Assembly: GCF_002795405.1 (NCBI RefSeq)
Contig: NZ_PHGZ01000021.1
Location: 1 to 64,000 of the forward strand
Direction: 5' to 3'
Length of the DNA: 64,000 nt
Source: Caviibacterium pharyngocola
GTDB taxonomy: Bacteria; Pseudomonadota; Gammaproteobacteria; Enterobacterales; Pasteurellaceae
Part shown: piece after piece, positions 41,879-61,574 of the stretch
Layout of the letters: each line of letters begins with the position of its first letter
How positions within the stretch are numbered: position 1 is the first letter of the stretch
The notes under the pieces: model-generated
What the model saw: the letters and a program-made list of their open reading frames with translations, nothing else
The model's database searches: none
What the model was told of the DNA's origin: nothing
Position numbers and translations under genes: made by a program

Positions 41879-42739
41879 ATGTCATTAGCCATCGTTTATA
41901 GTCGCGCGTCAATGGGCGTTCAAGCGCCGTTAGTGACGATAGAAGTGCATTTAAGCAACGGAAAACCGGGATTCACCTTAGTCGGTTTACCGGAAAAAAC
42001 CGTAAAAGAAGCGCAAGATCGCGTGCGCAGCGCCTTGCTCAACGCGAATTTTAAATACCCGCCGAAACGAATCACAGTCAATTTAGCGCCGGCGGATTTG
42101 CCGAAAGAAGGCGGGCGTTTCGATTTGCCGATTGCCATCGGCATTCTTGCCGCCTCGGATCAACTCGACGGCAAAGCCTTAGCCGGTTTCGAATTGCTTG
42201 GTGAATTGGCGCTCACCGGCAATTTGCGCGGCGTGCACGGTGTAATTCCGGCTATTTTGGCGGCAAAAGCAGCAAAACGAAATTTGATCATCGCCAAACA
42301 AAATGCCAATGAAGCAGCGTTGGTGGCGGATCAAGATTCGTATTTCGCCGAATCTTTACTGGAAGTCGTGCAATTTTTTAATCGCCAAGCTACCTTACCG
42401 CTTGCGGCGAGTACAGCCGTGCCCGATATGCCGACGGGCATTTTGCCGAATCAACCGAATTTAACCGATATTATCGGGCAACAGCACGCCAAACGCGCAT
42501 TGACGATTGCCGCCGCAGGGCAACACAATTTGCTGTTTCTCGGTCCGCCCGGCACGGGAAAAACAATGTTGGCAAGCCGTTTAACCGCACTTTTGCCAGA
42601 AATGACCGAGCAAGAAGCGATTGAAACGGCAGCAGTCACCAGCTTGGTGCAAAACGAATTAAATTTTCACAACTGGAAACAACGTCCGTTTCGCGCGCCG
42701 CACCACAGCGCGTCCATTGCCGCGTTAGTAGGTGGTGGC
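41879..42739 (+). pseudogene. comM: comM, 5' half (split by the transposon)
   Basis: ComM (YifB) is an AAA+ helicase that drives branch migration during natural transformation. The first 287 codons are intact: the Lon-protease-like N-terminal domain (LAIVYSRASMGVQAPLVTIE, LPKEGGRFDLPIAIGILA) and the Mg-chelatase-type ATPase up to Walker A (LFLGPPGTGKTMLASR, about 221-236) and RAPHHSASIAALVGGG. Reading on into the transposon adds Cys and a stop (GGC TGT TAA), giving a truncated product. The matching 3' half is at 61575-62246; together they encode 510 residues, the normal ComM length. Confidence 0.96.
42735..42739. repeat. Target-site duplication, left copy (GTGGC)
   Basis: GTGGC directly precedes the TGT end of the transposon and is repeated exactly at 61570-61574 after the ACA end, giving the 5-bp duplication typical of Tn7-like insertion. 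Confidence 0.95.
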
Positions 42740-42783
42740 TGTTAAAGATACAAATAAGTGTCAAAAGATACAAATAAATGTCA
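42740..42783. repeat. Left end: terminal inverted repeat plus second TnsB-type site
   Basis: Two copies of AAAGATACAAATAA(A/G)TGTCA lie in tandem (about 42744-42763 and 42764-42783). They match the sites at the right end in the opposite orientation and are best explained as transposase-binding sites. A TATAAT box (42788-42793) follows at once and may drive the left gene. Confidence 0.88.
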
Positions 42784-42822
42784 CTATTATAATCTACCAA
42801 ACACCATGAAAAGGACAAAATT

Positions 42823-44556
42823 ATGTCATACTTCGATGAAAATAACCTCCTTAGAGTTAACTGGCGTTGCTCACTCAATTTGATTAAATTCTTCAAATCC
42901 CCAATTCGAGGATATTTTGATTCTGAGGCTGAGTATGTTGTAACTTGGTACGATAAAAGGCTTTCATCTGGTAATGGTGAATCTAGGACATTTGTTGACA
43001 TTAATCTTATCAACCTCTCCAATCCAACTTATCAAACCCCAAATGAACTTCTCCAAAGTTTTATTGTTATTCAAGTTCCTATTAATTATTTACATAAAAT
43101 TCCCTTTGGTAGTATTTGGGAAGGAGGTAAATCTAAAGAGAAATTCCAATGCGAAGAATTTGAGGTAAAATTCAGTAAAGATAATAATCTATTTTACCTT
43201 CCTCTTTGGAAAGAAAACCATCCTTTCGAATGTGATAAATACGTTCACACATCTGATTTAGAGAGATTCAGGAAAGATGGTAATAACCTTTTGGTAATCA
43301 AACACGATAATCTATCTTGCATTATCCATCCCTTACATTTCTTTATGGCTCATTACGGATACTCAAGTGAGTTAAAACGTATTTTGTCAGTTTATAATTG
43401 GAGCGAGGTAATAAAGCATCTTTGTATTGGGGAAAATCCTACTAGTAATGACGAGAGAGTTATTGTCTTACCTCGCAATTTATCCGATAAAGATGCAGTA
43501 TTTTTATATCACTTAAAATACGATAATTATTCCAAAGCAGTAATTCAAAGAGTATCTGATCGTATTGTTAGCTCCAAAAATCCTTTTAACTCAAATAATT
43601 GCTATCAAATTTCATGCTGGCATACTCAAGAAATTACATTGTCCTTTTACGGTATTCGTTTAGGAAATTCCGTACTTTGCTGTCAGATCACAGGAATCAG
43701 CCAGCCACAGGGAGAGCCAATAACCTTGGCTCTGCCACCACTTGTAACTCCAAATAAGAATGCCAAAGAAGTAGAAAACGAAGAACAGCAGTATCGCATA
43801 ATTAAAAAAGAGCGAGAACATGACCTAGAGCAGTTAGATATAGCACTTAACCCAGTCAATAATCTTGTTACAGTAGATGTGATTGAAAAACTAAAACTAC
43901 TCGGCGAAGCTCGTGAAATAAATAAAATTCGAACAAGCCAAGAAGCCTCTCATACTAGTAATACAAAATTTCTGAATTATGATGATCCAACAGATTTTAG
44001 CGTAGGCGACAGAATAGGAAAGACTGGTCTCACAGGAATTGCAAATTGCCTTTATGAAATTGAATACGATAGCAAAGATAGGAACTCTCGCCTTGATACG
44101 GTTTGGGAACATGCAACTCGTTTACGTGCAGAAATGGGAGCAAGTGTATTTTGGTGGACTCCAAAATTAGGCTTTAGAGAAGAGCATAAATTTAAGCTTA
44201 TTTCTCTAATAGATGTCTGCAATAGTGCGAAGAAAAGCTATCCAGAGTCAACCTTAATCTTACGTATTGATGTTCGGGGAAAAACATTCTTTACCTTTAG
44301 TTTTCCTGAAAGAAATAATAATACCAGTTTTAGCAGTATAGTCTATGAACCTGCCAATATTTTAGAATTTTTATCCTTTGATGTAGAGGATGGAGTTTTC
44401 AACTTTCTCAAGCTACTTATTGAAGTTATTTCATTGCAAAGCATAAGTAGCGACTACGTTGATTATAAGAATGGGAGAATGGCAACTTTTAAACATAGGA
44501 TAGCGAGGAATAATGATAATAACTGGGTTTGGAACGGAATAAAAAAACTACTCTAA
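42823..44556 (+). CDS. Possible TnsE-like protein
   Basis: This 577-residue protein is encoded alone at the left end, starting 83 bp inside the transposon with AAAAGGAC as Shine-Dalgarno. I see no catalytic motif of a nuclease, kinase or ATPase. Features that recall Tn7 TnsE are a mid-protein HFFMAHYGYSSELKRIL helix (about 167-183), a QITGISQPQGEPITLALP strand-turn (about 290-307), a charged linker (about 315-350), and a C-terminal alpha/beta domain (LDTVWEHATRLRAEMGASVF, then LILRIDVRGKTFFTFSF). TnsE steers Tn7 to replicating lagging strands and conjugal plasmids. The match is from memory of overall pattern only; the alternative is an unrelated cargo protein. Confidence 0.4.
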   Translation: MSYFDENNLLRVNWRCSLNLIKFFKSPIRGYFDSEAEYVVTWYDKRLSSGNGESRTFVDINLINLSNPTYQTPNELLQSFIVIQVPINYLHKIPFGSIWEGGKSKEKFQCEEFEVKFSKDNNLFYLPLWKENHPFECDKYVHTSDLERFRKDGNNLLVIKHDNLSCIIHPLHFFMAHYGYSSELKRILSVYNWSEVIKHLCIGENPTSNDERVIVLPRNLSDKDAVFLYHLKYDNYSKAVIQRVSDRIVSSKNPFNSNNCYQISCWHTQEITLSFYGIRLGNSVLCCQITGISQPQGEPITLALPPLVTPNKNAKEVENEEQQYRIIKKEREHDLEQLDIALNPVNNLVTVDVIEKLKLLGEAREINKIRTSQEASHTSNTKFLNYDDPTDFSVGDRIGKTGLTGIANCLYEIEYDSKDRNSRLDTVWEHATRLRAEMGASVFWWTPKLGFREEHKFKLISLIDVCNSAKKSYPESTLILRIDVRGKTFFTFSFPERNNNTSFSSIVYEPANILEFLSFDVEDGVFNFLKLLIEVISLQSISSDYVDYKNGRMATFKHRIARNNDNNWVWNGIKKLL

Positions 44557-44572
44557 AATTTAGGAAGTCAAA

Positions 44573-44923
44573 ATGAATAAAATTATTACGCTATTAACAT
44601 TAACTCTTTCTGGGTTTGGCTACTCCAATTACGGTAATCAATATAATAGTTCCCAATATGGGAGTACAAGCATACATCAAGACCCTCGTTATATGTATAA
44701 CTACCGACTCGGTAATTCTGGGCCTTATACCTACAATTATGATGTAGAAGATATAAATGGTTCAGGTGCTTATGGAGACTGTACGATGACGGGAAAATAT
44801 GGCGATTGCACAATCATCAATGAATATGGCGACGAGGTGTACGCTGATGCTGAATGGATTCGTAATGGAGTGATGATTGTAACTGATGAAGATGGCAATG
44901 AATATGAAATGGAAGCTCAATAA
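44573..44923 (+). CDS. Small exported protein with repeated YGDC motif
   Basis: The 116-residue product starts with a probable signal peptide (MNKIITLLTLTLSGFGYS) followed by a Tyr/Asn/Gly/Ser-rich segment (about 19-60) and two YGDC repeats (GAYGDCTMTG and KYGDCTIINEYGDE), then a short strand-rich acidic end. I do not recognise it. AGGAAG precedes the ATG, 16 bases behind the TnsE-like gene. Two Cys in a secreted product suggest a disulfide. Its presence in a defence cargo block is odd. Confidence 0.65.
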   Translation: MNKIITLLTLTLSGFGYSNYGNQYNSSQYGSTSIHQDPRYMYNYRLGNSGPYTYNYDVEDINGSGAYGDCTMTGKYGDCTIINEYGDEVYADAEWIRNGVMIVTDEDGNEYEMEAQ

Positions 44924-44930
44924 TATAACA

Positions 44931-46034
44931 ATGATTATGAATAATCTAACTGGTAAGGATTATAGATTACAACAACTATTTGAAAATAAACATGAATTTG
45001 GCGTACCTTGCCACGAATTTATTTTACCCTTTGATGAGACCTTTAGAAAGAGTTCATATCATATATTTAAATGTTTTATTGAAAACCCTCTAAATAACAA
45101 TGCTATTTCCCTTTTGTTGAAAGGAAAGGAAGGTTGTCGTCGCGCAGAAGTATTGAATATTTTAGGGTTTAAAAAATGGATTATTGTATCAGACTACGTT
45201 TTTGATAAAAATAAGCCACAAGATGTAATTACATTTTCAATAATGCCACACGTTAAAGACTTTAATGAACTTAAAAACAAAATTAACACTTTACAAAAGA
45301 AAGATATTAAGCATTCTGATTCAATAAACCCTGAATTCATAAAATTTTTTCAGGAATTTCCAATTTTCAACATATCCATATCAATAAACAAGAAATTTAA
45401 ATTATTTACCGACGAGAAGCTTTTCTCAAACCAACAAATATCAGGATATATAAAACAAATAGAACATTGGATTGAGAATGAGAAAAACATTGAAAAATAT
45501 ATTAAACAAAAAGATTTGCTAATCAAATTATTAGAAAAATTAAATAGGAAAGAGCCTAGCTTTAAAGAAATAAGAAGAATATTCTTTATTGGTGCGATTA
45601 CTACTTATTTAATGTACCTAATTACTAGCTTTATACCAAAATTAGAAGTTATAGGTTGGTTTTCGGATAGAGATACTATCATTTATTACAAAGAGAAAGA
45701 ATTAGGTGGATATTTGATATTTCAATATATTCAAGATTTATACCATGTTTTTTGTGAATCAAAAAATCTAAAACAATCAAATATAGCTTTTGGATTACCA
45801 GAGGAGCAGGGTGAAATGTGGTTTGATGAATTAGTTAGACTACCTGATTTCATTGCAGGAACGCTAGCTGATTATAATAAAGAAGAAAATGAATTTTCTC
45901 ATGATAAATTCATTCCTTTATTTGAAAAAGTATTTACAAATGAAAATAAAAATTTAATATTTAATGTTTTTATTGGAAATAACAATAACAGCTTTGAAAT
46001 GAGAGTAACTAGAGCAACTTTCGACAAAATATAA
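44931..46034 (+). CDS. Unknown protein of the defence cargo (first gene of a putative ABC-ATPase module)
   Basis: The 367-residue product is very AT-coded and rich in Lys, Asn and Ile. Nothing in it is a clear known domain. The second half holds EVIGWFSDRDTIIYYKE (about 235-252) and DELVRLPDFIAGTLADYN (about 300-317); an acidic residue in the first and the closing ADY pattern resemble RNase H-like DUF3800-type proteins, but that is weak. A longer start at 44886 would overlap the previous gene; the ATG at 44931 (or 44937) avoids this. Only 18 bp separate it from the Cap4-like nuclease gene, so they are likely one operon. Confidence 0.6.
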   Translation: MIMNNLTGKDYRLQQLFENKHEFGVPCHEFILPFDETFRKSSYHIFKCFIENPLNNNAISLLLKGKEGCRRAEVLNILGFKKWIIVSDYVFDKNKPQDVITFSIMPHVKDFNELKNKINTLQKKDIKHSDSINPEFIKFFQEFPIFNISISINKKFKLFTDEKLFSNQQISGYIKQIEHWIENEKNIEKYIKQKDLLIKLLEKLNRKEPSFKEIRRIFFIGAITTYLMYLITSFIPKLEVIGWFSDRDTIIYYKEKELGGYLIFQYIQDLYHVFCESKNLKQSNIAFGLPEEQGEMWFDELVRLPDFIAGTLADYNKEENEFSHDKFIPLFEKVFTNENKNLIFNVFIGNNNNSFEMRVTRATFDKI

Positions 46035-46052
46035 CTATGATAGTGAAACATT

Positions 46053-47099
46053 ATGCTAAATAAACTGAATAAAATAAAGCAACGAGAAACATCAGGTAGT
46101 GATACATTTAAAAACTATGACTATCAGTATCACTGGGCTATCTATACTCTTTTAGAAAATTCTAGAAAAAATGATGATATTGCTGTATTAGTTGAGTTTC
46201 ATGAAGATGTCATTTTAGTAGAAAACATATCTTCAGAAAATAATCAATTAAATTTCTTTCAAATTAAAGCAAATGATAAACATTTAACTCTAAGTGATAT
46301 AATTAAAAGAGAAAACGGAAACAAGTCTATTTTAGATAAATTAACACTAGGAAAAGAATATTTAGAAATATTAGATAATATAAAATCTATTAAACTAGTA
46401 TCTGCGAATGGTTTTTCCCCCAAGTTTTGTACTGATGAATCCAACTTTTACCAGTTATGCGATAAAGATAAGAAAAAAATAGAAGATAACTTGTTGCTTG
46501 AGATAGATAAATACTCTTTTTTAAGTAAACTTTATTTTTCCAAATCAAAACTACCAAAAACAAAATTTATCCAAACTGTAAAAGGAATATTATCAGAAAT
46601 TATTCAGGAAATACACCCTGATAAAAGAACAAATGTAAATGCTATTTATCTTGTTCTAAAAGATGATTTACACGATAAAGGAAAAAAAAGATTAACTGAT
46701 AAAGATGACCCTCTACAAGAAAAGGGAATAACCTTTTTTACTGTAAAAGAGGTGATTAAACGTTATACAGATATAGAAGATGATGATCTAACATCGGCAT
46801 TAAATATACTTAATGAAACATCTTACACTATAATCGAAAAACAGAAGATAAAGACAGAGTTATTAAAATATAGTACACATCATCTAAACTCAGGAAGTAT
46901 TCAAGCACAAATAAAATTAGATATATTAAGCTCTAACATACTTGATGATTTGATGTGTAGTGATGACAAACAACTTACTAAAATAATTGATAATTTCTGT
47001 TCAAACTTAAACTCAAAGTATGGTACTATAAGTACTGATCAAATGATCAAGTCAGGAGTGTTGTATGAGCTATCAAGATACATTAGAGAAACAGCGTAA
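46053..47099 (+). CDS. Cap4-like (DUF4297-type) dsDNA endonuclease
   Basis: The 348-residue protein begins with a region I read as a Cap4/DUF4297 nuclease: RETSGSDTFKNYDYQYHWAI (about 11-30), the acidic LVEFHEDVILVE (Glu48 to Glu57) and LNFFQIKA (Q70-x-K72), in the order needed for a PD-(D/E)XK centre. The remainder (about 170-348) is helical and may sense or oligomerise. Cap4-type nucleases are effectors in CBASS, Lamassu and ABC-three-component systems; the ATPase gene 54 bp downstream favours the last two. No cyclase gene is present, which argues against CBASS. Confidence 0.7.
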   Translation: MLNKLNKIKQRETSGSDTFKNYDYQYHWAIYTLLENSRKNDDIAVLVEFHEDVILVENISSENNQLNFFQIKANDKHLTLSDIIKRENGNKSILDKLTLGKEYLEILDNIKSIKLVSANGFSPKFCTDESNFYQLCDKDKKKIEDNLLLEIDKYSFLSKLYFSKSKLPKTKFIQTVKGILSEIIQEIHPDKRTNVNAIYLVLKDDLHDKGKKRLTDKDDPLQEKGITFFTVKEVIKRYTDIEDDDLTSALNILNETSYTIIEKQKIKTELLKYSTHHLNSGSIQAQIKLDILSSNILDDLMCSDDKQLTKIIDNFCSNLNSKYGTISTDQMIKSGVLYELSRYIRETA

Positions 47100-47199
47100 A
47101 TTATCGTCATATATGAAATTGATTCGTAATTTAAGAACTAGACCAATTAAAAATGAAAAGATTAATAATCAAGCAATTAGCAATCTTATCCAAAGATAA
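47065..47199 (+). CDS. 44-aa overlapping small ORF between nuclease and ATPase genes
   Basis: An ATG at 47065 with AGGAG six bases upstream opens a 44-codon frame that overlaps the end of the nuclease gene (by 35 bp) and the start of the ATPase gene (by 47 bp). The product is basic (TLEKQRKLSSYMKLIRNLRT). The downstream ATPase ATG lacks a Shine-Dalgarno of its own, so this ORF may couple the translation of the two, or be a residual or minimal middle component of a three-part system. It could also be non-functional. Confidence 0.5.
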   Translation: MSYQDTLEKQRKLSSYMKLIRNLRTRPIKNEKINNQAISNLIQR

Positions 47200-48763
47200 A
47201 GATGCGGGAAACCTGTTTACTTTTAGTGATGGAGTGAATTTTATTCTATCTGATAAGAACTCAGCAGGGAAAACCACACTATTGAGTTTAATGTATAGTG
47301 CACTAGGTTGTGTAGTAAAATTTAAAGATGAATGGATAAATTCATTTATTAGATTAGATATATCTATTGAAGAGGATTCTTACTCTCTTTACAAAACTCC
47401 AAATGGAATATATTACATATACGATAAAAATTCTCTAACAAAATATGAAGAAGAATCTGATTATCATAAAAGGCTGGCTGAAATTTTAGGATATAAAATA
47501 TATCTCAAAACTCATTCAGGCACACTTAAACTTGCCAGACCAGCTCACTTCTTCTTAACCAGCTATATTTCTCAAGCTAAAGGGTGGGATTCTTTTTTTC
47601 CAAATTCCTTTGAAAAACTAGGTGAATTTAAAAGGTTTCAAACTGATTTAGTAGAGCAATTCTGTAAAGTGAAAAGTGATAAAGAATTAGAGAATGAAGA
47701 AGAATTACAAAAAATAAAAGATAGTTTAGAACAGAAAAACAACGAAAAACAAGTTTTGAGTTTAACTAAAGAAAATCTTGAGCTAGAAGCTAATTCCAAT
47801 ATTAATAAGCTAAAGGAAACCGCTGAAGGCTATGAGAAGAACTTAAATCTATTACAAGAACAGTTATCCAATTTAGTTGTTGAACGGCAATTCTTACTTA
47901 ATGAAATCAACTTCGTTGCTCCAACAGTCAAAGAGCTTGATGAAGATTATCAAGAAGCACGTGGATATGGAGCTAAAATAGAATGTCCTTATTGCGGTAC
48001 TATTCACTCTAATACAATTACAGAAAAATCAGAGTTATTTTTTATAAAAACAAAATTGGAAGATGAATTAACCAATAATCAATCTCGAATAAAAGAAATT
48101 GATATAAAAATATCAGAAACTGAAAGAAAAATAATGGAACTATCAGAACTGATATATGATATAGATCCTATTATTACAGATAATACGAAACAATTAATAA
48201 ATGCAATAACAGCAAATGGAATATCTGAAATATTAGACAATATTGAAAACAAAATCATCCAATTTGGAGAACAAAAAAAACACATAAATAAAATAAAGAG
48301 AAAGAATAGAAAAGAATATCGAGAGCATGAAGAATCTGTTAATAATTTTTTTGTTACAAAATTAAAATATTATGCTGATAGATTATCCATTATATTTAAT
48401 GATTATGATGAAATCAAAAAAGTGACTAACTACCACAAAATTCTAAATGCTGTTAGAGGTGGTGCTGCCGATAGCAATCGTACTGTTTTAGCATACTATT
48501 TAGCTATTTATGCTACTGCAATAAATTTTAATACTAATATTCTTCCTCCGCTAGTGCTTGATACCCCTAATCAGAATGAGCAAGATAAAGAAAATTATAA
48601 ATCTATAATAAACACCTTAATACAAGAGAAAAACAAACAAATAATTATTTGTTTAATTAGAAGTGAGCATTCCGAAATATTAGCATCTATAAACAAAATC
48701 GAGGTTAATAGATTAATGAAAAATGGAGAGTATCATGAGTTTTTTAATGAGCTAGATATATAA
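47153..48763 (+). CDS. SMC/Rad50-like ABC ATPase with zinc-hook motif
   Basis: The 536-residue protein has Walker A NSAGKTT (36-42), a long coiled coil (about 175-260 and 290-400) with a CPYC zinc-hook motif (Cys278, Cys281) at its middle, a signature-like GGAADSNRTVLAYY (436-449) and Walker B PPLVLDTPNQNEQD (465-478). This is the build of the ATPase in Lamassu (LmuB) and ABC-three-component defence systems, which sense DNA ends or replication intermediates and release a nuclease effector. The adjacent Cap4-like gene fits as effector. No Shine-Dalgarno is visible at its start, so translation probably depends on the upstream reading frames. Confidence 0.8.
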   Translation: MKRLIIKQLAILSKDKDAGNLFTFSDGVNFILSDKNSAGKTTLLSLMYSALGCVVKFKDEWINSFIRLDISIEEDSYSLYKTPNGIYYIYDKNSLTKYEEESDYHKRLAEILGYKIYLKTHSGTLKLARPAHFFLTSYISQAKGWDSFFPNSFEKLGEFKRFQTDLVEQFCKVKSDKELENEEELQKIKDSLEQKNNEKQVLSLTKENLELEANSNINKLKETAEGYEKNLNLLQEQLSNLVVERQFLLNEINFVAPTVKELDEDYQEARGYGAKIECPYCGTIHSNTITEKSELFFIKTKLEDELTNNQSRIKEIDIKISETERKIMELSELIYDIDPIITDNTKQLINAITANGISEILDNIENKIIQFGEQKKHINKIKRKNRKEYREHEESVNNFFVTKLKYYADRLSIIFNDYDEIKKVTNYHKILNAVRGGAADSNRTVLAYYLAIYATAINFNTNILPPLVLDTPNQNEQDKENYKSIINTLIQEKNKQIIICLIRSEHSEILASINKIEVNRLMKNGEYHEFFNELDI

Positions 48764-48811
48764 AACGCAATTATATCGCAAATGAACAAGTACTAATCAC
48801 TTAAAATTACT

Positions 48812-48854
48812 AAAATCCTCGCAATACATTTTCTGATTACGGGGATTTTTTATA
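48812..48854. terminator. Terminator between the two cargo modules
   Basis: AAAATCCTCG and CGGGGATTTT can pair (one G-T pair) across a loop of about 18 bases, followed by Ts. It lies between the convergent ATPase gene and restriction operon. The rest of 48764-48959 is AT-rich with no feature I can name. Confidence 0.65.
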
Positions 48855-48959
48855 GCTCTAAGTTTCCTAATAAACTAGGAATAATTAAAGGGATAGTAAA
48901 AATTGATGAAATAAATTTAAAAAAGTGTAGGAGATCAGACTTAATCTTCTACATTTTAA

Positions 48960-49904
48960 TTACCACAATCTATCATCATTAAAGAGAGATTCAAAATTCC
49001 TAGATTTTGATATAGGGTAAGTCGCATAAATTGCATCTTTTGATTTATCTGAAGAGAAGTTCATGATGGTTAGGGGTTGGTAAAACTCATAACCTAAAAC
49101 ATAGCCAAGAAAGTAGCCTATAAAAATTGGTTTTCCATTATTTTTATCTATTTTTTTATCATCTATAAAAATTCTAGTATATAAATTTAGGGATTCGCTT
49201 ATTTCATAATCTAATATTTCTTTATCATTCTTTCCTTTCATAAATGAAATATTATCTTTCACCCATTGCAGATAGCTTTTAGTGTCATGTATTATAGAAC
49301 CGTTATTTCTTGTAAAAACTGGGTATTTAAAAAGATCCAATTTTTTCAATGAGCTTATGATATCTCTTTGAAAAGTGGTATTATTTAAATGTTTACTATA
49401 GTTTTTCTTTGCCTCATTATATATTTTATCAGGTATTTTTGATGACTTTATCTCAATCAAATACACTTTATGTTTTGTACAAAAATTTATAACACGTCCA
49501 TTTAATTTACCATACTTGTTGGTTGATATATATTCATTTATCTTATCTATTACTTCTTTAATATAAGGATTTCCTTGCCTGAATAACAAACCATCAAATG
49601 GAGCGTGCTTTTTAAATTCATCCTGTCTTATTTGATCGTAAGTTATATATTCTAATTTTATATTATTAGATATACTATTTTTATAATCAATTAAGTCTGC
49701 AAAAAATTCTTCAATTATTTTCCCTTGTTTGGTGTTTTTACTTATTTCATTTTTATCTCTATTCTTTTCCCATGTATTTTCGGTATGATTGATTATAATG
49801 GATTGGTTTAAATCTAATTCATTAAATTTTTCTTTAGGAGAAAAGATAATTATATCTTCATCTAAATAGATGAGTCTAAATCTACTTGTATTAATAATCT
49901 CCAT
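48960..49904 (-). CDS. Putative restriction endonuclease (PD-(D/E)XK)
   Basis: The 314-residue protein is the last gene of the restriction operon, starting 2 bp after the methyltransferase stop. A nuclease core is visible at HAPFDGLLFRQGN (about 100-112, Asp) and VYLIEIKSSKIPD (about 147-159, E-x-K), the spacing expected of type II enzymes. The C-terminal part (FIGYFLGYVLGYEFYQPLTIMNF) may bind DNA or dimerise. The recognition site is unknown. Confidence 0.75.
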   Translation of the reverse strand: MEIINTSRFRLIYLDEDIIIFSPKEKFNELDLNQSIIINHTENTWEKNRDKNEISKNTKQGKIIEEFFADLIDYKNSISNNIKLEYITYDQIRQDEFKKHAPFDGLLFRQGNPYIKEVIDKINEYISTNKYGKLNGRVINFCTKHKVYLIEIKSSKIPDKIYNEAKKNYSKHLNNTTFQRDIISSLKKLDLFKYPVFTRNNGSIIHDTKSYLQWVKDNISFMKGKNDKEILDYEISESLNLYTRIFIDDKKIDKNNGKPIFIGYFLGYVLGYEFYQPLTIMNFSSDKSKDAIYATYPISKSRNFESLFNDDRLW

Positions 49905-49906
49905 AT

Positions 49907-53900: not shown

Positions 53901-54189
53901 CTGTATTTGGACGCTGGGTAACTTTTTTGAAGTTTCGGAGATAGGTATGGAACTGTTTATCCTTAAACCACTCGTCTGAGTCTTTAAATTTTGCTGGGGC
54001 AGACCATAACTTGTTATATTTAAGGTTAATGGCTGCTGTTTTGGTTTGCTCAAGAATACGCTCATCCACATTCTGTCGTTCGGTATAACCAATTTTTAGC
54101 CATCCGTCATTATCAGAAATATCAGGGAGTGAATAAGCGTAGATTTGAGGATAGATGAATTTTGTAGTTTTGATTTCAGTGTTATTCAT
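50941..54189 (-). CDS. GIY-YIG / DEAD-helicase / methyltransferase N-part fusion
   Basis: The 1082-residue protein has (1) an N-terminal GIY-YIG-like (T5orf172-type) domain, YAYSLPD..WLKIGYTERQNVDERI (about 18-45); (2) a superfamily 2 helicase with WNAKPRFGKTLTTYD (Walker A, about 156-170), LLVIDEAHEG (DEAH, about 270-279) and a C-terminal helicase lobe with LTTGITIPEW (about 493-502); (3) a coiled-coil linker rich in Lys, Glu and Ala (about 715-860); and (4) an incomplete methyltransferase start, NQIFTPKKVVKLMLDKL and DLYVKSGLYLTEIVKRL (about 950-1005), with Gly-x-Gly of motif I replaced by Lys-Ser-Gly. It overlaps both neighbours, so the operon is tightly coupled. It is the motor of the restriction system. 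Confidence 0.85.
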   Translation of the reverse strand: MNNTEIKTTKFIYPQIYAYSLPDISDNDGWLKIGYTERQNVDERILEQTKTAAINLKYNKLWSAPAKFKDSDEWFKDKQFHTYLRNFKKVTQRPNTEWFYYNGTPNLSLQHFDDFISKQLVQSQEQLDYQLREEQQNAVNKTLEYIQNNPNSEFLWNAKPRFGKTLTTYDLVRKLDVSKVLIVTNRPAIANSWFDDFAKFIAWQTDFAFVSTSDSLKNRPILTREEFLEQQHTTGKRRMIAFISLQDLKGGISFGGSYNKLSWVKELNWDLLVIDEAHEGVDTIKTDIAFDNINRNFTLHLSGTPFKAVASGKFNEDEIFNWSYADEQAAKENWSNVEQNNPYENLPRLNLFSYQISQMITNEVNKGAKIDGQNIDYAFDLNEFFETNENGKFLHEEDVKKWLDSLTRNEKYPFSTKELRNELKHTFWLLNRVASAKALQKLLEAHPVFENYKIVLAAGDGQTDDQIVNQKAFERVKQAIKENDKTITLSVGQLTTGITIPEWTAVLMLTNCRSPSLYMQAAFRAQNAWNYEQNGEVYQKQNAYVFDFAPERTLIIYDEFANNLFSHTANGGGTSETRKDNIKLLLNFFPVIAEDNEGKMIELDVNQVLTIPKAIKAQEVVRRGFMSNLLFQNISGIFASSEVREILEQLNPVDIGKVMPRETDEEIETQGVEVDDNGEVVIDGDIVIAQTDARFGEKVYQTITAATEEAIKSSESDISTLIAERFKQEATQGMKELAKDNDVSAKFAERVVQKSAETIAKKVEYIQKQTEIKKAEAKVALEKVIATTQNQDEIEKAKATFEEKCQQIENDFKEELLSTVEAETKEIAKQSTQTILEKAEDNKKNQVEDDVRARLRGFSRTIPSFLMAYGEADTTLATFDQTLNDEVFKEVTGITLEQFRVLRDTYNFFDETVFNESVQEFLRKRSELANYFDESQKEDIFDYIPAQKTNQIFTPKKVVKLMLDKLEEENPDIFSDPDKTFADLYVKSGLYLTEIVKRLYVGLEAKIADSDERLKYILENQIYGFAPSEIIYNIARNFIFGFDEKAKNINQSHIVHLDTTPYAKEELSDEFEKKCDELFRGK

Positions 54190-55106
54190 TATGTACTTAT
54201 CTCTTTATCAAAAAACTCCATCTTTTTGGTGTGCCAATTCATTATTTTCACACGTTTTCCATTTGTGCGAGCTATAGCTTGTGATGGAGTTTTATCACCA
54301 AAAAGATCTGGTTGCAATTCTGATGCAACCGTTTCCGTATCAGATAAAGGAATAATATACTTAATACCATCCATTTGAAATATATTGTAGCTTATAATTT
54401 CAGCAATATATTTAAATTTGTCAAAAGATGGTTCTTCTTGCCATTTTTCAAGATAATAATCACGGTAAGTATAAAGCAAATTTTCGCGAGCTAAGAGAAG
54501 AGAATCACCGTTCCACTCAAAACCATAAGATGCTTGATAAGCAAGAACAGCAAGGGTGTGCCATTCAGATTTATCATTCACCTCAGATGAAATTCGCTTT
54601 AATTTTCGATCTATGAAGCCTTCTCGTTCATTAATAGGTAAGATTTTCCCTGTTCCCATATCATAGCGAGTAGCCATGTAAGGTGCTTCACCACAAGTGA
54701 TCTCTAACCATGTTCGAGATATGTACGTTTTTAGATCATCATTTAAATAATCTTGTTCTGCGGCATCATTTTGTTTTTTGACAATCCATGTTGGGGTAAA
54801 TACCTCAGCTTTAGATCTAGTTCTTTCTTTTTGAATTTCTTGTGATTTTAAGGCTCTTGGCATAATAAGACACTCCATCTTACCCGTAATAAGAGCAGGC
54901 TTAATTTGAGCTGTTGGAGCGTAATATCTAGCACTATGTTTAGTATAGTTATTATTAGCCCAAATAATATTTTTGGTCGTTTTCTTAGTTGATTTGGTTC
55001 TATCAATCAGCAACAATTCAAGAATTTCAGGCATTTTTTCGCGAATGAAGTTTTCTGAAATATCTGCTGATGTTTCGTTATTTAAGCTAATAATTTTATC
55101 TAACAT
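54189..55106 (-). CDS. Restriction-system M-type subunit
   Basis: The 305-residue protein carries KAEVFTPTWIVKKQND (about 99-114), similar to the TPxx(I/V)V start of type I/Eco57I methyltransferases, followed by WLEITCGEAPYMATRYDMG (about 132-150) and INEREGFIDRKLKRI. No NPPY motif is visible, so it is unlikely to methylate by itself; it may be a modified methyltransferase or a specificity/accessory subunit. Its TAA overlaps the ATG of the helicase gene by one base. Confidence 0.68.
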   Translation of the reverse strand: MLDKIISLNNETSADISENFIREKMPEILELLLIDRTKSTKKTTKNIIWANNNYTKHSARYYAPTAQIKPALITGKMECLIMPRALKSQEIQKERTRSKAEVFTPTWIVKKQNDAAEQDYLNDDLKTYISRTWLEITCGEAPYMATRYDMGTGKILPINEREGFIDRKLKRISSEVNDKSEWHTLAVLAYQASYGFEWNGDSLLLARENLLYTYRDYYLEKWQEEPSFDKFKYIAEIISYNIFQMDGIKYIIPLSDTETVASELQPDLFGDKTPSQAIARTNGKRVKIMNWHTKKMEFFDKEIST

Positions 55107-55108
55107 AA

Positions 55109-55342
55109 TTAATTTTTATATCCGAAAAGTTCTCTATCTATACGAAAAGCTTCACGCCATTCACGCAGATAATGTTTCTCAAATTGATTACCTTTAATGA
55201 TTGCAAGTCGGCGATCAAACCGTCTTAAAATATGTGGAATCGTTGCAAAGGCAATCATTTCATCATCTTTTTGCTCTTGTTCAAGCCATAGCTTAAATTG
55301 TTGTTTAAGAGACAAGGTAGATTCGCTGTTTGTACTGTTCAT
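55109..55342 (-). CDS. Small first gene of the restriction operon
   Basis: The 77-residue basic/acidic helical protein (SLKQQFKLWLEQEQKDDEMIAF, HILRRFDRRLAIIKG, YLREWREAFRID) ends 2 bp before the M-type gene. I do not recognise it. It could be a regulator or a recognition/accessory subunit. The 55343-55461 gap upstream holds the operon promoter region and a small GC-rich palindrome (ACCGC TGA GCGGT). Confidence 0.62.
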   Translation of the reverse strand: MNSTNSESTLSLKQQFKLWLEQEQKDDEMIAFATIPHILRRFDRRLAIIKGNQFEKHYLREWREAFRIDRELFGYKN

Positions 55343-55461
55343 ATAAGCTCCAGTTAGTTTGATGGTTAATAACTGGGTGCTACTTTAACCGCTGAGCGGT
55401 TTCTGTCGAGAAATGAGTTTCAATTTTTCGAGCGAGATCGCAAAAATAGAATTTTTTCTCG

Positions 55462-56880
55462 TCAAAACTGCGGTTTTATACGCAGATAGATGTCTTGTGG
55501 AAGGAAATAATCCTTCATGTTGTCACGGTAATAAGCTACACCATCTATCAGTACAATGACATCAAATTTTGTTTTTTTGATTTCGATACCGTGCAAACTA
55601 TATAACACAACTGAAAGCAGATCCATCTGTTCAGCAGTAGTTAATTCTGTTTGCTTGTAGAGTTCAACTAAACGTTGCGAATAACGCTTTTTAAGCCGTT
55701 TAGCTTTCATCTGTTGAATAAGTTTGCGGTCAATATCTAACTTGCAGTGATATACCGATTTCAGGTGGTTGATAAAACCTGTAATTGCCGCAATTTGACC
55801 TGTTTTCTCGCTCAAGTAATGGTTTAACTGTTCCTGTGTAGGATAGTCTGTAACCGCTTGAGAACTGATTAAGTCGATAGCTGGTTGTAAAGCTAACCGA
55901 ACAGATTTTAGTGAAGTTTTACCATCATCATATCGTCTTTGTAAAAGTTTATAGTAACTTGCTATACAAGGTACAGATTCTTTAAGTTTATTAAAAAGGG
56001 ATTGTATGCGTTGCATTTCAGCTAAGTCGTCTTTTAAAGCTTCATCTACAACTACTTGATTCGTATCAAGTAACCAGCGTAATACAGTTAAATTTGCACG
56101 CAAGCCGTTTGGCTTGAAGTGCGTAACCAACTCCGCATAATCAGGAATTTTCTGCCAAATATCATCGCAATCAATGAAGAAACGCATAAAATCCGAGCCT
56201 TTATGCAAAACAACGCTGATACCACATTTTTGCATATACCAAAAGATGAATTTCTTGTAGGCAGTTTTTACTGCCTTATTGCGAAAGATATGCACATTTA
56301 GGCGAATCATATTGAATAATAAAGTTCGTCTCGCACAATCAGGACAAATATTACCATAACCTGAAGCCATTTCCGCTTTGCACTTAGGGCAAGTTGAAAG
56401 TAACTGTTCATCACATTTTTTGCATAACTGCTTTTCTTGATTATGAATTTTGCGATAACGGCTACAATTCTTACACGTTGCAAAGGTGTATCGTCGATAG
56501 CAAGAAAGGCATATGGATTCTTTTGTGATTGGTGAACGATATCTATCTCGGGTCATATTGCCACATTCTGAACACATTTGTTCTTCACGGAAATAACGAA
56601 CACATGATGAACATACGGCTCCGTAATTCGTTACTATTCCTACATTAAATGTACCAGCTTCTTTCCCACAACGAACACAATCCGTCAAACGTTCGCACTC
56701 AAGGCAAAATTCGCCATCACGATGAATACGCTTTAATTGACCACATGACTTACAGGTTTTCTTTTTAAACCATTGAGCGTAACAATTCGCACAATAGTAT
56801 TCCTCTCGGAATTTGCGTGTAACTGGTGTTTTTCCACAAATAGAACAACTATTTTGCGAACGAATTTGGGTTATCTTCAT
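55462..56880 (-). CDS. tniE: TniE-like zinc-ribbon-rich transposition protein
   Basis: The 472-residue protein begins with about nine tandem zinc-ribbon-like units (CSICG, CANCY, CKSCG, CVRCG, CSECG, CKNCS, CKKCD, CPKCK and CPDCA), then a helical C-terminal half (about 200-472) with KHLK-type basic patches that looks like the core-binding fold of a recombinase. Its ATG at 56880 overlaps the stop of tniQ by 4 bases. In the AbaR/Tn6022 group the fifth gene after tniQ (tniD) is tniE, of unknown function; position, size and Cys richness match that. Confidence 0.68.
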   Translation of the reverse strand: MKITQIRSQNSCSICGKTPVTRKFREEYYCANCYAQWFKKKTCKSCGQLKRIHRDGEFCLECERLTDCVRCGKEAGTFNVGIVTNYGAVCSSCVRYFREEQMCSECGNMTRDRYRSPITKESICLSCYRRYTFATCKNCSRYRKIHNQEKQLCKKCDEQLLSTCPKCKAEMASGYGNICPDCARRTLLFNMIRLNVHIFRNKAVKTAYKKFIFWYMQKCGISVVLHKGSDFMRFFIDCDDIWQKIPDYAELVTHFKPNGLRANLTVLRWLLDTNQVVVDEALKDDLAEMQRIQSLFNKLKESVPCIASYYKLLQRRYDDGKTSLKSVRLALQPAIDLISSQAVTDYPTQEQLNHYLSEKTGQIAAITGFINHLKSVYHCKLDIDRKLIQQMKAKRLKKRYSQRLVELYKQTELTTAEQMDLLSVVLYSLHGIEIKKTKFDVIVLIDGVAYYRDNMKDYFLPQDIYLRIKPQF

Positions 56881-57995
56881 ACTGCAATTTGTAATTGTCG
56901 TTTTAGTCGTTCCCATTGACGGCTTAAACTTAAAACAGAATCGGTCTTAGGTTTATTAATTATCGTCTTACGGCTTGTTGTTTTTCCTTCAATGGCGTAT
57001 TTAAAGAGGTTATCAAGCTCCGTAGGATAACGTTCAAAAGCGAACGCTTTTTGGGTAATACCGCTTTGTTTAATAGCTTGAATAAAATCCTTACTTGATA
57101 ATTTCAGGATTTTTCCCGCATTTACCAGTAAATTCTTACGTTCTTCAACAGGAAGTTGCTCAAACGCAAGGGCTGTTCTGGTTTGACATATTTCTACTTG
57201 CGAAATACCACATTGTTCTACAAATCTTGAAAAAGAATGAGTAGATTTTGCAATCGCAGCACGTCGAGTAAAATTGATAAAGTAGCGTAATATAGCAAAG
57301 TACACTTGCGAATCTACACATTTCCCGAAACATTCACCTGAATTAGTTGTAAACACGTTATCAAGCATTTCCATCGTTGCAATTTCTACTTCATTAAGCG
57401 GTGTAGTAATGACCTGTAATTTCTCACCGCATTGATGACAGTAGTTTAGCTGTCGCTTCTCTGCTGAAAGCAAATGCGGTTGATACAGTCCGCCACAACA
57501 AGAGCATTTAGATTCAAATAGAACCTTATGTTTCAAACAACCAAAGTGCCATGCAAAACGCCATTCATTACGCAAATAAGGAGTTTCTTCTAAGCAGCAA
57601 GGACAATAAGATTGACCGACACGAAATGAACGATTACGTGAACCTCTTGAAAGCACCCACTTAGCTTGACCTTTAATGAGAGTATTTTTGCCGTTAATCG
57701 GTCTCAATACGGAATAAAGCGAATGATTCACTAAGTTTACCTGCTGATTAAGCGATAATTCGGTAATATCAGCATAAATATGCTGTGCAATTGGTTCAAA
57801 CCCTCTATCTAAATCATACGTCCATAATCGCCATTTATTCCAATAAAACCCTGTAAACGTAATCGGCTCTGTACCACAATCTAGGGCAGCACGAATAAGC
57901 CATGAACTAATACTTTCATTCGAGTAGAGTGGTGTTCTGATAACACCTGATTTTATCCGATAATTTTTCGGAAGCCCTGCGTTGGTTGTACCCAT
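56877..57995 (-). CDS. tniQ: TniQ/TnsD-family target-selection protein
   Basis: The 372-residue protein starts with the TniQ N-terminal pattern VIRTPLYSNESISSWLIRAAL (about 18-38), a zinc-binding part with CPCC (about 137-140), CLKHKVLFESKCSCCGG and CHQCG, and a helix-turn-helix-rich C-terminus. In Tn7-like elements this family binds the attachment site; here that site is in comM. The gene overlaps tnsC by 43 bases; no better later start was visible. Confidence 0.87.
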   Translation of the reverse strand: MGTTNAGLPKNYRIKSGVIRTPLYSNESISSWLIRAALDCGTEPITFTGFYWNKWRLWTYDLDRGFEPIAQHIYADITELSLNQQVNLVNHSLYSVLRPINGKNTLIKGQAKWVLSRGSRNRSFRVGQSYCPCCLEETPYLRNEWRFAWHFGCLKHKVLFESKCSCCGGLYQPHLLSAEKRQLNYCHQCGEKLQVITTPLNEVEIATMEMLDNVFTTNSGECFGKCVDSQVYFAILRYFINFTRRAAIAKSTHSFSRFVEQCGISQVEICQTRTALAFEQLPVEERKNLLVNAGKILKLSSKDFIQAIKQSGITQKAFAFERYPTELDNLFKYAIEGKTTSRKTIINKPKTDSVLSLSRQWERLKRQLQIAV

Positions 57996-58846
57996 GAATT
58001 TTTCTCGATAATGTCTAACGTAATTTGCTCAGTACCTGATGTAATTGCTTCTACTGCACACGCAGTCAATAAACGATGTACATTCCCTAGATTTCCACCT
58101 GAAATCGTATGAATTTTAGTAGCGAGTTCAGGTGATTGTAGGTTAGAGCATTTCTTCAATGGCAAAACACCCTGAAATTGGAAAAGTAACTTTTGAAAGT
58201 CCTTATCCAGCTTCCACGTTGGCAATTCAGCAACATCAAAACGACTGGCATGTTGTGGATCTGTATGTAATACCCGAATAGCATCACGAGTACCAACACC
58301 GATAATTGGAATTTGTAGTTCGTTACAAAGCATCTTAATTGCGTTCATCACCTGTCGTTGTAAGCGTGGTGTACCAACCAACAGAGAATGAAACTCGTCA
58401 ATGATCAACATTTTTACCTTATACTCTCGGAATAAATGTACCGTTTGATAACGCAGCTTTGCTACACTATCTGTCGATTTATATGGCACATAGAACCGTT
58501 CCAATAGCGAGATATACAATTCTTTTTCATTTGCACTTGGAGGGGATTCTGCCAGAATGACTGGTCGCACTCCCTCTGATTGACTATTAACAAAAGATTG
58601 CCCGTATAAGCTATAAAAATGGCGAATCAACGTGGTTTTACCATTATTAGAATCACCCACAACTAATAAATTAAACATTCGTGGACGCTTCGGTTTATTC
58701 ATTAGCGAAACCAAGTTTTCAATAATTTGATTGGCAACAGGGTAGCCAATCCAACGTGGTTCATCTAAAAACTCAATTCGTTCTTGATTACTAGCATTAA
58801 CAAGATGACGGAACTTTTCATGAATGTATTCATATTGCTTGCTCAT
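57953..58846 (-). CDS. tnsC: TnsC-family AAA+ regulator (TniB type)
   Basis: The 297-residue AAA+ ATPase shows Walker A VVGDSNNGKTTLIRHF (about 62-77), Walker B KMLIIDEFHSLL (about 144-155), sensor I GVGTRDAIR (about 186-194) and a C-terminal HTISGGNLGNVHRLL arginine-sensor region. It links target-bound TniQ to the transposase. Its ATG overlaps the tnsB stop by one base. Confidence 0.9.
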   Translation of the reverse strand: MSKQYEYIHEKFRHLVNASNQERIEFLDEPRWIGYPVANQIIENLVSLMNKPKRPRMFNLLVVGDSNNGKTTLIRHFYSLYGQSFVNSQSEGVRPVILAESPPSANEKELYISLLERFYVPYKSTDSVAKLRYQTVHLFREYKVKMLIIDEFHSLLVGTPRLQRQVMNAIKMLCNELQIPIIGVGTRDAIRVLHTDPQHASRFDVAELPTWKLDKDFQKLLFQFQGVLPLKKCSNLQSPELATKIHTISGGNLGNVHRLLTACAVEAITSGTEQITLDIIEKNSWVQPTQGFRKIIG

Positions 58847-60756
58847 TATTCAATCTCCCCAAAAGTAAATTCGCTGTCTGAAAGTAAATGAGATGTAGGT
58901 ACTTTCACTGTTTCTATTGCATTGCTGTCTGGTATAGCCGTTGGGATTACCACCTCACTTTTAGCATGAACTTTTTGTCTTTGGGCTTGCCTACGTGCCT
59001 TCTTCGTTAGTTGAGCTGACCTTTCTACTCTCTCACGCATTTCAGTCAAAGCATCGTGGATCTGCTGCGAATGAATCAACTTCTCGTCTTTATTTTTTAG
59101 GAATTGACGAACTTGCTTGTATTCCCAAATACTCATATCAGGTAAAGACTGATCTGCAAACGGGATAGGAAAATAGCGTTTTAGCTTTGGATCGTAGAAC
59201 CAAATACGCCCAATATTTCTAGGATCGTAACGGAATAAGAACTCTTTGCTTTTACCTTTTTCATCCGAATCATTGATATGCATATTCAATGCAACATCGT
59301 AGTAACGTAACCCATCAATAGTTACACCATTATGTTGAATAGTCCGTTTTTTACTTGGGAGAAAATCCAGCAATAAAGTCTGCTCATCTTTAGGTAATTG
59401 AGGATAGCCACAACCGACATGATCTTTATCTCCAAAAATACCTAACCGCCATTTTTGGACTGGAGACACCCCCAAAGCAGAGTGAGTACGCTTATGATAA
59501 ACATTGACAATATAGTTAAGTAACCACGCTTCAAATTCATCTAATGTCATAACCGCTTCTGATTCTGAATTGTAATTGTCTTTCTGTTTAATATTCGAGA
59601 ATGTTGTGCCACTTAAGCCATGAACTTCCTTCATAAACGTACCAATTACACGTTCGATATGTCCGCCAAATTCTGGTCGGCCAACAGGCCTAAACTCCAA
59701 GGCAATATTATGGGCTTCACAGGATTTTGAAAGATCAAGTGAACGGAAGTCTGCTCCATTATCAACATGGATCTTGTTTGGGTAGCCAAAGACATTCCAT
59801 TCGCCTTTTACATTGTGATCTAGTAGCAACCTCTCTTTTGGCAAAATACTACGAGCAATACACATTGCTACAGATGTAACCGAAGGTTCATCCAATGACA
59901 GGTAATATCCCGTAATCATTCGGCTGTATATATCCATTGCTAAAGTTAAATATGGTCGCCCAATCGGTTTGCGATATTTATTATCTACAATGATTAAATC
60001 AACAGGTGTATGGTCAATTTGAATAACACTCAGCGGAAAATCAACATTTGGAAAATGGTTTGGCTTAGGTGTAAATTTATTTTTCGCTTTTTCTTTTTGT
60101 CCACGTTTACGTAATCGTTCTTCTTCCGAAATGCTTAAAATTCGTTTGCGAATTGTACGGCGAGACGGGCTTTCAATCCCTTTTAAATTTGCAACACGTT
60201 GCACTTCTCGGATAGTTTGCTCAATAGATGGGCGTTGTTTATGCAGATAAAAATCATTAATTACCTGATTAACCAATTCATTTTGCTCTTTATTTAAGCG
60301 AGAATTACCCTCAGACCAACCTCGTTTGCGATCTACTAATCCTGCAACAGAACCAATCGAATTATATGCTTGAATCCAACGATATAATGTACGTTTGCTA
60401 ACACCTATTTTCTCTGCATGAGCTTCAACCGAAGTAGGGTCATATTGTTCTTCATTAAGTAAAGGTTTTATCGCTTCATATTTTTTAAGTGCCTTATTCC
60501 AGTATTCATCTCCAATTTCACTTAAATCAATAGAAAGATCTTCCCGTTCATTAACCACTACATTATCAAGCTGATGAATACTTGCTATTTTGCTCTGTTG
60601 AGTGTGAATGTTTCGGATCAGGACTTGTGAATCTTCATCAAGGTACTCAATTAATTGATATTGCTCGCCATCTTCTCGATTTATATAAAGAAAGCCTGTT
60701 TGTAAGCGAATACGGCCTCGCTGTAATCCTCTTTCAACTGAAAAACCTTTATTCAT
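58846..60756 (-). CDS. tnsB: TnsB-family DDE transposase (TniA type)
   Basis: The 636-residue transposase has N-terminal helix-turn-helix DNA-binding domains (VSKRTLYRWIQAYNSIG, about 118-134), a DDE core with VIQIDHTPVDLIIVD (about 243-257), KIHVDNGADFRSL (about 327-339) and RPEFGGHIERVIGTF (Glu, about 363-377), and a C-terminal Lys/Arg/Gln-rich tail that would contact TnsC. The ATG at 60756 is chosen for its GGAG Shine-Dalgarno; an in-frame ATG at 60798 would extend into tnsA by 50 bases. TnsB cuts the 3' ends and joins them to target DNA. Confidence 0.92.
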   Translation of the reverse strand: MNKGFSVERGLQRGRIRLQTGFLYINREDGEQYQLIEYLDEDSQVLIRNIHTQQSKIASIHQLDNVVVNEREDLSIDLSEIGDEYWNKALKKYEAIKPLLNEEQYDPTSVEAHAEKIGVSKRTLYRWIQAYNSIGSVAGLVDRKRGWSEGNSRLNKEQNELVNQVINDFYLHKQRPSIEQTIREVQRVANLKGIESPSRRTIRKRILSISEEERLRKRGQKEKAKNKFTPKPNHFPNVDFPLSVIQIDHTPVDLIIVDNKYRKPIGRPYLTLAMDIYSRMITGYYLSLDEPSVTSVAMCIARSILPKERLLLDHNVKGEWNVFGYPNKIHVDNGADFRSLDLSKSCEAHNIALEFRPVGRPEFGGHIERVIGTFMKEVHGLSGTTFSNIKQKDNYNSESEAVMTLDEFEAWLLNYIVNVYHKRTHSALGVSPVQKWRLGIFGDKDHVGCGYPQLPKDEQTLLLDFLPSKKRTIQHNGVTIDGLRYYDVALNMHINDSDEKGKSKEFLFRYDPRNIGRIWFYDPKLKRYFPIPFADQSLPDMSIWEYKQVRQFLKNKDEKLIHSQQIHDALTEMRERVERSAQLTKKARRQAQRQKVHAKSEVVIPTAIPDSNAIETVKVPTSHLLSDSEFTFGEIE

Positions 60757-61411
60757 TGTTATAGCTCCATACTTGAGTAAATTCTGAGAGAGGTTCAAAC
60801 CAATTACAGGTTAATTGTTTTGTTGCTAACAAGTGATAGATAACTTGCAATCCTTTCGCCCTATAGAGTGAACCAGAAAAGAAACGAGTAAGCAGGTAAT
60901 CAATTGTGGTTATCTCCATTAAGCGAACCTGACTTAATATTGCTTCAACATCTTCTTTTTCTACAAGTAAACGTTTATACCGTTGCACAGCATTGATATT
61001 GAATAATGCAAGATGACGGATTTTGTCCTCATCATAAATATGGAACACACAGTCATTTTGCTTGCAAAATTTCATCGCAGCTTTCCATTTCTGTTTCCAT
61101 TCATGCCAATGAGCTTGCCATTTAGCTTTAGGCTTTACTTCAATTAGCATGCTTTTTCGGTCATCATTAAACCTGACAAAGAAATCGGGTGTGTAAGGAT
61201 AAGTTATTCCATTTTTAGTAAAAGAGAGTCGAATAGGTTGTGGAATAATATCTTCTGCTATTGGAAGATATGTGAAGTACATTAAGAAATCACGTTCCAA
61301 AGTGGACTCATAAGGAATGCTTACACCATCCTTAAAAGGTAAGTGGCCTGAGACACTCATTCGGGTTGGTTTGATTTTTCTAACCTGCTGAAAGTGATAA
61401 TTTTTACTCAT
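60749..61411 (-). CDS. tnsA: TnsA-family endonuclease
   Basis: TnsA cuts the 5' ends during cut-and-paste transposition. The 220-residue protein has ESTLERDFLMYFTY (Glu, about 34-47), YPYTPDFFVRFND (Asp, about 71-83) and SMLIEVKPKAKW (about 88-99), the E-D-x-K nuclease centre. A C-terminal winged-helix-like half follows. The ATG at 61411 lies only 7 bases inside the innermost TnsB-type site, so binding of the transposase could block its expression. Confidence 0.9.
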   Translation of the reverse strand: MSKNYHFQQVRKIKPTRMSVSGHLPFKDGVSIPYESTLERDFLMYFTYLPIAEDIIPQPIRLSFTKNGITYPYTPDFFVRFNDDRKSMLIEVKPKAKWQAHWHEWKQKWKAAMKFCKQNDCVFHIYDEDKIRHLALFNINAVQRYKRLLVEKEDVEAILSQVRLMEITTIDYLLTRFFSGSLYRAKGLQVIYHLLATKQLTCNWFEPLSEFTQVWSYNNE

Positions 61412-61418
61412 AATAATT

Positions 61419-61569
61419 TGACACCTATTTATATCTTTTAAAATAAATTGACAGCTATTTGTATCTTTTGTGCCATCTATTTGTATCTTTTAATGGCAAA
61501 AAATAGGGCAAAGCCTTATTCTTTCGTTTCAATGTTGAAACATTATGACATTTATTTGTATCTTTGACA
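61419..61569. repeat. Right end: four TnsB-type sites and terminal inverted repeat
   Basis: Copies of TGACAnnTATTTGTATCTTTT stand at 61419-61439 (one change), 61449-61469, 61471-61491 (one change) and 61546-61569 (the terminal copy, ending TTTGACA). The left end has two copies, so site number differs between ends as in Tn7. A small palindrome GTTTCAA-TG-TTGAAAC (61526-61541) lies in the gap. Confidence 0.88.
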
Positions 61570-61574
61570 GTGGC
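61570..61574. repeat. Target-site duplication, right copy (GTGGC)
   Basis: GTGGC follows the ACA terminus directly and repeats the left copy at 42735-42739. Confidence 0.95.

Follow-up and report, generated by a model that had tools for sequence, protein, structure and literature searches.

Insertion of a Tn7-like transposon in comM

The first 64,000 nucleotides of contig NZ_PHGZ01000021.1 of Caviibacterium pharyngocola (Pasteurellaceae), hereafter the window, contain an 18,830-bp Tn7-like transposon at 42740–61569, inside comM and bounded by TGT...ACA. We assign it to the Tn6022/TnsF group, targeted to comM through the selector protein TnsF, and put the probability of this reading at about 0.93. 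Because the element encodes a homologue of TnsF, for which a role as comM selector has been published, we regard it as a Pasteurellaceae member of that group. It links two lines of work that the cited passages treat separately, one on the islands in comM of Pasteurellaceae, on record for many years, and one on TnsF as a selector, studied with an element from Acinetobacter. The comparison points to the same selector being active, at a single codon, in a family with natural competence. Apart from these links, the insertion is as expected for a known element type and target.

The insertion is real and complete. The left junction passes from ...GGTGGTGGC into TGTTAAAGATAC and the right junction from ...TATCTTTGACA into GTGGCACGATT, with exact copies of the 5-bp target-site duplication GTGGC at 42735–42739 and 61570–61574 (plus strand). 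The 5' part of comM (41879–42739, plus strand; 287 codons including the left duplication copy) matches Pfam ChlI and the N part of Mg_chelatase, and the 3' part (61570–62246, plus strand; including the right copy and the stop) matches Mg_chelatase and Mg_chelatase_C. When the flanks are joined with one GTGGC dropped, a stop-free ComM of 510 codons results, in which Walker A (GPPGTGKT) starts at residue 222 and Walker B (LFLDE) at residue 303, so that the insertion, which follows residue 287, falls between the two. The junctions and the joined translation bear out what a first-pass annotation had read here, namely TGT...ACA ends, GTGGC duplications, a restorable 510-codon comM and a cut between Walker A and Walker B.

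A repeat search found two 20-bp repeats (starting at 42743 and 42763) after the terminal TGTT of the left end (42740–42782, plus strand) and four (61420, 61450, 61472 and 61547) in the right end (61420–61569, minus strand), which closes with ACA; all are likely TnsB binding sites. Each repeat scores 19–20 of 20 against a consensus drawn from these same repeats with three free positions, and the top score in the rest of the window is at most 16. The GC content is 0.33 in the element and 0.44 in the remaining window. Tn7 likewise makes a 5-bp duplication and has asymmetric multi-site ends, as the window element does with its two left and four right repeats.

Transposition genes and the predicted selector TnsF

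Five backbone genes lie on the minus strand in the order tnsA-tnsB-tnsC-tniQ-tnsF, with a short tniQ. The first, tnsA (tniC; 60749–61411), encodes a 220-residue endonuclease with the Pfam families Tn7_TnsA-like_N and Tn7_Tnp_TnsA_C, followed by tnsB (tniA; 58846–60798), whose 650-residue DDE transposase matches Pfam Mu-transpos_C and TnsB chains in the PDB, including Tn7 TnsB (7pik) and an I-F3 TnsB. The product of tnsC (tniB; 57953–58846) is a 297-residue AAA regulator (Pfam TniB, 1.4e-70), and that of tniQ (tniD; 56877–57995) has 372 residues (Pfam TniQ, 1.3e-16) and is about 28–32% identical to TniQ of Acinetobacter loci; tblastn of the window TniQ against the reference loci L128–L131 gave no match at E 1e-3. 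These Pfam families, together with the Acinetobacter comparison, confirm the tniCABDE-like backbone that had been proposed from the first reading. Cas families were absent among the open reading frames (ORFs) scanned with Pfam, PADLOC (ten cargo-side ORFs) and NCBIfam, and no search was aimed at a CRISPR array.

The predicted target selector gene, tnsF (tniE; 55462–56916, minus strand), lies downstream of tniQ and overlaps it by 40 bp, an overlap that passages of PMC10293859 also describe (PMC numbers here and below cite particular passages of these papers). Its 484-residue product has a zinc-ribbon N part and resembles Acinetobacter tniE, with 28–30% identity over 92–96% among the Acinetobacter matches listed; across 23 sequences, 22 cysteines are invariant and 2 nearly so. 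A search of plasmids with TnsF matched 69 records, 51 of them from Acinetobacter, and a TniQ-family protein was annotated under the same match in 18 of 25 plasmid rows, among the matches listed. An AlphaFold2 (AF2) model shows a helical C part, with a mean predicted local distance difference test score (pLDDT) of 83.6. A PDB profile search with TnsF returned nothing significant.

The gene order, the comM codon, the 5-bp duplication and the TGT/ACA ends are all shared with Tn6022/AjTn6022 and AbaR of Acinetobacter, and Tn6022/AjTn6022 likewise has, close to its left end, a gene that runs opposite to the others (PMC10293859). Homology, gene order and the common junction thus uphold the earlier placing of the element as Tn7-like, comM-targeted and kin to Tn6022/AbaR. 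The proteins are nevertheless about 28–52% identical to those of the Acinetobacter elements, the window element has its own end repeats, and Lamassu-like and restriction–modification (R-M) cargo stands instead of the usp and sulP genes of the Acinetobacter locus L086, neither of which was found among the window ORFs scanned. Tsy elements (PMC10293859) share TnsF and the comM target, but they carry a tyrosine recombinase, have no tns genes and use a recombinase mechanism.

One comM site across families

The site survey covered 38 named loci that encode a relative of TnsF, and in 26 of them the comM 3' part lay within the fetched stretch. In 24 of these 26, ranging from Pasteurellaceae to Acinetobacter and Halomonadaceae, the terminal ACA abuts GNGGN; the two exceptions are L122, where the junction differs, and L102, which was unread from the bases printed. 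Both ends with matching duplications were also found in Acinetobacter tandoii and Vreelandella titanicae. The first-pass annotation had proposed a comparison with empty sites, and the uninterrupted comM of relatives does rejoin there: the site reads VGGGT in all 30 of the best 30 by score, one of which has GTGGC itself.

A TnsB tree (37 rows, quick method, seven rows thought to be near-duplicates removed, two TnsE-bearing Tn7-like rows as outgroup) placed the 11 Pasteurellaceae rows in one clade, with a Shimodaira–Hasegawa-like approximate likelihood ratio test (SH-aLRT) support of 100, and grouped the window with nine of these rows in a set of 10 (98). The tree does not resolve the branching among the Pasteurellaceae clade, the clades of Acinetobacter and Halomonadaceae, and two mer-type tniA, which group with a Massilia row (92). 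The TnsE-bearing outgroup lies far off. Long branches were flagged in this tree.

These results bear on a rival origin, in which a TnsD-guided relative of Tn7 landed in comM accidentally or was led there by TnsE at a replication fork. TnsA, TnsB, TnsC and a TniQ-family protein are common to both, and a TnsE-like gene and copies in other genes, described below, speak for such an origin. Canonical Tn7, however, pairs glmS with a long TnsD, whereas the window element pairs comM with TnsF and a short TniQ of 372 residues, and its candidate TnsE is not recognisable by sequence. Its TnsB is also distant from those of the two TnsE-bearing Tn7-like elements, and TnsF carriers repeatedly use one comM codon across families. 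We therefore consider a TnsD-guided origin extremely improbable, and favor targeting through TnsF.

Distribution in Pasteurellaceae

Across 140 Pasteurellaceae genomes, we detected TnsB in 18, TnsF in 15, the left-end gene in 17 and ComM in 139 (outliers in the ComM search were G098 with a weak match, G036 with none and G024 with a best match of 4.7e-91). At least 12 genomes combine TnsF with a comM broken at this place (the window, G002, G014, G015, G018, G020, G021, G030, G042, G054, G108 and G117), the comM 3' part starting at about residues 285–287, except for a G020 match that begins at 274 and runs into the element. The other three TnsF genomes have tnsF in two pieces (G094) or remnants (G096 and G104). 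The association of TnsF with broken comM (12/0 against 3/125) gives a Fisher value of 6e-15 among the comM matches listed, with related genomes not independent. Seven of the 12 have the same duplication at either end (the window, G002, G018, G020, G042, G054 and, across two copies, G117), and the comM halves are 11 to 34 kb apart in the 8 measured. Named carriers in the family include Glaesserella australis, Rodentibacter caecimuris, Pasteurella bettyae, Aggregatibacter actinomycetemcomitans, A. kilianii, A. segnis and Actinobacillus capsulatus. An excision footprint in G046 and G047 (L132 and L133), genomes with no TnsF match, was considered and dropped; what disrupts their comM is a frameshift a short way downstream of the site.

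Within the family, the islands resemble the window element in using the same comM site and in TnsB, for which nine of the 11 loci from the family show 79–84% identity and the two Rodentibacter loci 70%, but they vary in cargo and size, and three have deletions into comM. That the Pasteurellaceae TnsB form one clade, and that five carriers come from a single genus (g5), would fit one old insertion passed on by descent rather than repeated targeting. In that same genus, however, five genomes have a TnsB match but G016, G017, G019 and G022 have full-length comM, and each duplication has the comM bases of its particular host. Descent from one insertion is on this evidence very unlikely, and repeated targeting of comM remains our preferred explanation.

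Several observations weigh against targeting of comM through TnsF. Five of the 12 comM carriers lack a matching duplication: the end duplications of G030 differ, the left end of G014 was not found, and a deletion beside the left end leaves comM only as far as residue 126 in G015 (L137), 231 in G021 (L134) and 270 in G108 (L052). In G108, moreover, tnsB is split in two and tnsF has a premature stop. A comM match was absent from the fetched stretch in 12 of the 38 named loci, among them an hsdR copy (L092), a Mannheimia element (L099) and a short contig (L100). The element of Mannheimia sp. USDA-ARS-USMARC-1261 (L099) interrupts a Sel1-repeat gene; its ends lie at roughly 5.3 and 19.4 kb and are flanked by a clean GGTAT duplication, in a genome where comM is full-length and tnsF is in two pieces. 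A second copy in Rodentibacter caecimuris lies in hsdR with tnsF intact, its two flanks both within hsdR, non-abutting and without a duplication. Finally, the TnsF model had no significant Foldseek match, the best recombinase being 2a3v (E 0.36).

Islands in comM have a long record in this family, including a 17-kb insertion in Mannheimia succiniciproducens (PMC1626085, 2006), islands of 14–25 kb in Aggregatibacter actinomycetemcomitans (PMC3139650, 2011), islands of 11–28 kb (PMC6963875), a report on strain NI1060 (PMC4943601) and further prior art on comM in Pasteurellaceae (PMC11472951). PMC4774983 (2016) connected the Pasteurellaceae islands with those of other genera, Acinetobacter among them, which occupy an orthologous place. 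The first-pass annotation had presented the element as extending comM targeting to a competent family dependent on uptake sequences; with such islands already published (PMC1626085, PMC3139650 and PMC4774983), that extension is not new. The word Pasteurellaceae is absent from the main text of PMC10293859 (2023), and such elements may stand in the tree of its supplement. What we consider mildly new are the copies outside comM, the comM deletions by the left end in three genomes, and an element without the uptake sequence.

A left-end gene and copies outside comM

The first-pass finding included neither the defense cargo nor a 577-residue gene at the left end (42823–44556, plus strand, opposite to the tns genes), a candidate remote TnsE. 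According to PMC10293859, Tn6022 elements carry near their left end a remote TnsE that is recognized by structure, and the 577-residue gene is probably this protein. Relatives occur in 17 of the 140 genomes, 13 of which have a TnsB match, and adjoin left-end sequence in at least 14 cases. A profile built from 13 relatives reaches a Vreelandella titanicae gene just inside the comM 5' part (3.4e-90) and, more weakly, Acinetobacter rathckeae (1.6e-20) and A. indicus (1.5e-11), in frames cut by the end of the stretch. By hhalign it aligns with the 598-residue gene of the ATCC 17978 plasmid element (85%, E 5.8e-06), a gene matched neither by BLAST (best E 0.077) nor by an iterated profile of the 577-residue gene.

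The same gene could instead be ordinary cargo and no TnsE, since it has no Pfam match up to E 10, matches neither the Tn7-like TnsE of L131 by hhalign nor TnsE in the PDB by sequence, and gives a poor AF2 model (pLDDT 48.5). Ordinary cargo would nonetheless sit badly with relatives that accompany TnsB, keep to the left end, also inside the comM 5' part of Vreelandella titanicae, and extend by profile to Acinetobacter. Foldseek on this low-confidence model placed TnsE (5d17 and 5d16) at ranks 6, 7, 21, 44 and 48 among the 50 matches listed (E 0.94 to 2.7), and the probability of 5d17 (0.35, E about 0.9) was the highest among them. We find the cargo reading unlikely, though not negligible, and retain TnsE as the probable identity. 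Left ends with the TnsE-like gene were also seen outside comM in G011, G012 and G051 (L042, L046 and L050), genomes with no TnsF match.

More speculatively, and at a low probability, we suggest that the Pasteurellaceae clade may be a two-route element in which TnsF homes to comM and the TnsE-like protein sends copies elsewhere, such as to the Sel1-repeat gene and hsdR, with comM later eroded from the left end and its loss made irreversible. The copies outside comM are natural experiments on whether the Tn6022/TnsF group has a working TnsE route. In Rodentibacter caecimuris (L091, L092, L049 and L055), which has two copies, one comM half borders each copy, an arrangement that an inversion between the copies would produce.

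Proposed mechanism and host setting

Passages of PMC10293859 report that TnsF, formerly tniE, binds comM and is essential for AjTn6022 transposition into it, which also requires 10 bp of the Walker B stretch; published work also relates the helical part of TnsF to tyrosine recombinases. By analogy with this work on AjTn6022 and with that on AbaR, TnsF of the window element would recognize the conserved comM stretch at Walker B through its zinc ribbons and helical part, and TniQ would couple it to TnsC. TnsA and TnsB would then excise the element by cutting at the terminal TGT and ACA and insert it within VGGG, 45 bp before the codons for Walker B, giving the 5-bp duplication. The left-end gene, as a probable TnsE-like second selector, may serve other targets.

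Curing AbaR raised transformation about 300- to 1000-fold (PMC7508600). Since the insertion breaks comM, transformation should likewise fall in the present host, which would shield the element from replacement by recombination. ORFs of the ComEC, DprA and TfoX/Sxy families are present. The window contains 48 copies of the uptake sequence AAGTGCGGT, none of them in the element, which makes up 29% of the window (p about 5e-8 if randomly placed).

Defense cargo

The cargo includes two defense modules, which would serve to defend the cell; defense genes are already known as cargo of Tn7-like elements (PMC8649781). On the plus strand, a 116-residue gene of no family (44573–44923) and a 382-residue gene of no family (44886–46034) precede an LmuA-like Cap4 nuclease of Lamassu defense (46053–47099; Pfam Cap4_nuclease 1.9e-30, PADLOC LmuA 4.1e-60) and an LmuB-like ATPase (47153–48763; PADLOC LmuB 5.6e-80, PDB LmuB 9ux7 1.6e-12). 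LmuA and LmuB thus stand side by side, as Pfam, PADLOC and the PDB agree, and scans of these three sources identified no third Lamassu subunit. The PDB search found no relatives of the 382-residue gene, of LmuA or of the 1082-residue protein described next.

The minus strand carries the R-M cluster, comprising two methylase genes and a 1082-residue T5orf172-helicase protein. Its first gene encodes 77 residues of no family (55109–55342), followed by a 305-residue type II methyltransferase-like protein (54189–55106; PADLOC MTase_II 6.9e-76, no Pfam match), the 1082-residue restriction protein (50941–54189; T5orf172, ResIII helicase and the middle part of type IIG), and a 345-residue Eco57I-type methylase part (49907–50944; Pfam Eco57I, PADLOC MTase_II, type IIG profile positions 1010–1359). 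A 314-residue gene of no family (48960–49904, minus strand) comes last. Within 48960–55342, the 1082-residue protein and the 345-residue methylase that overlaps it together look like a type IIG enzyme divided between two genes.

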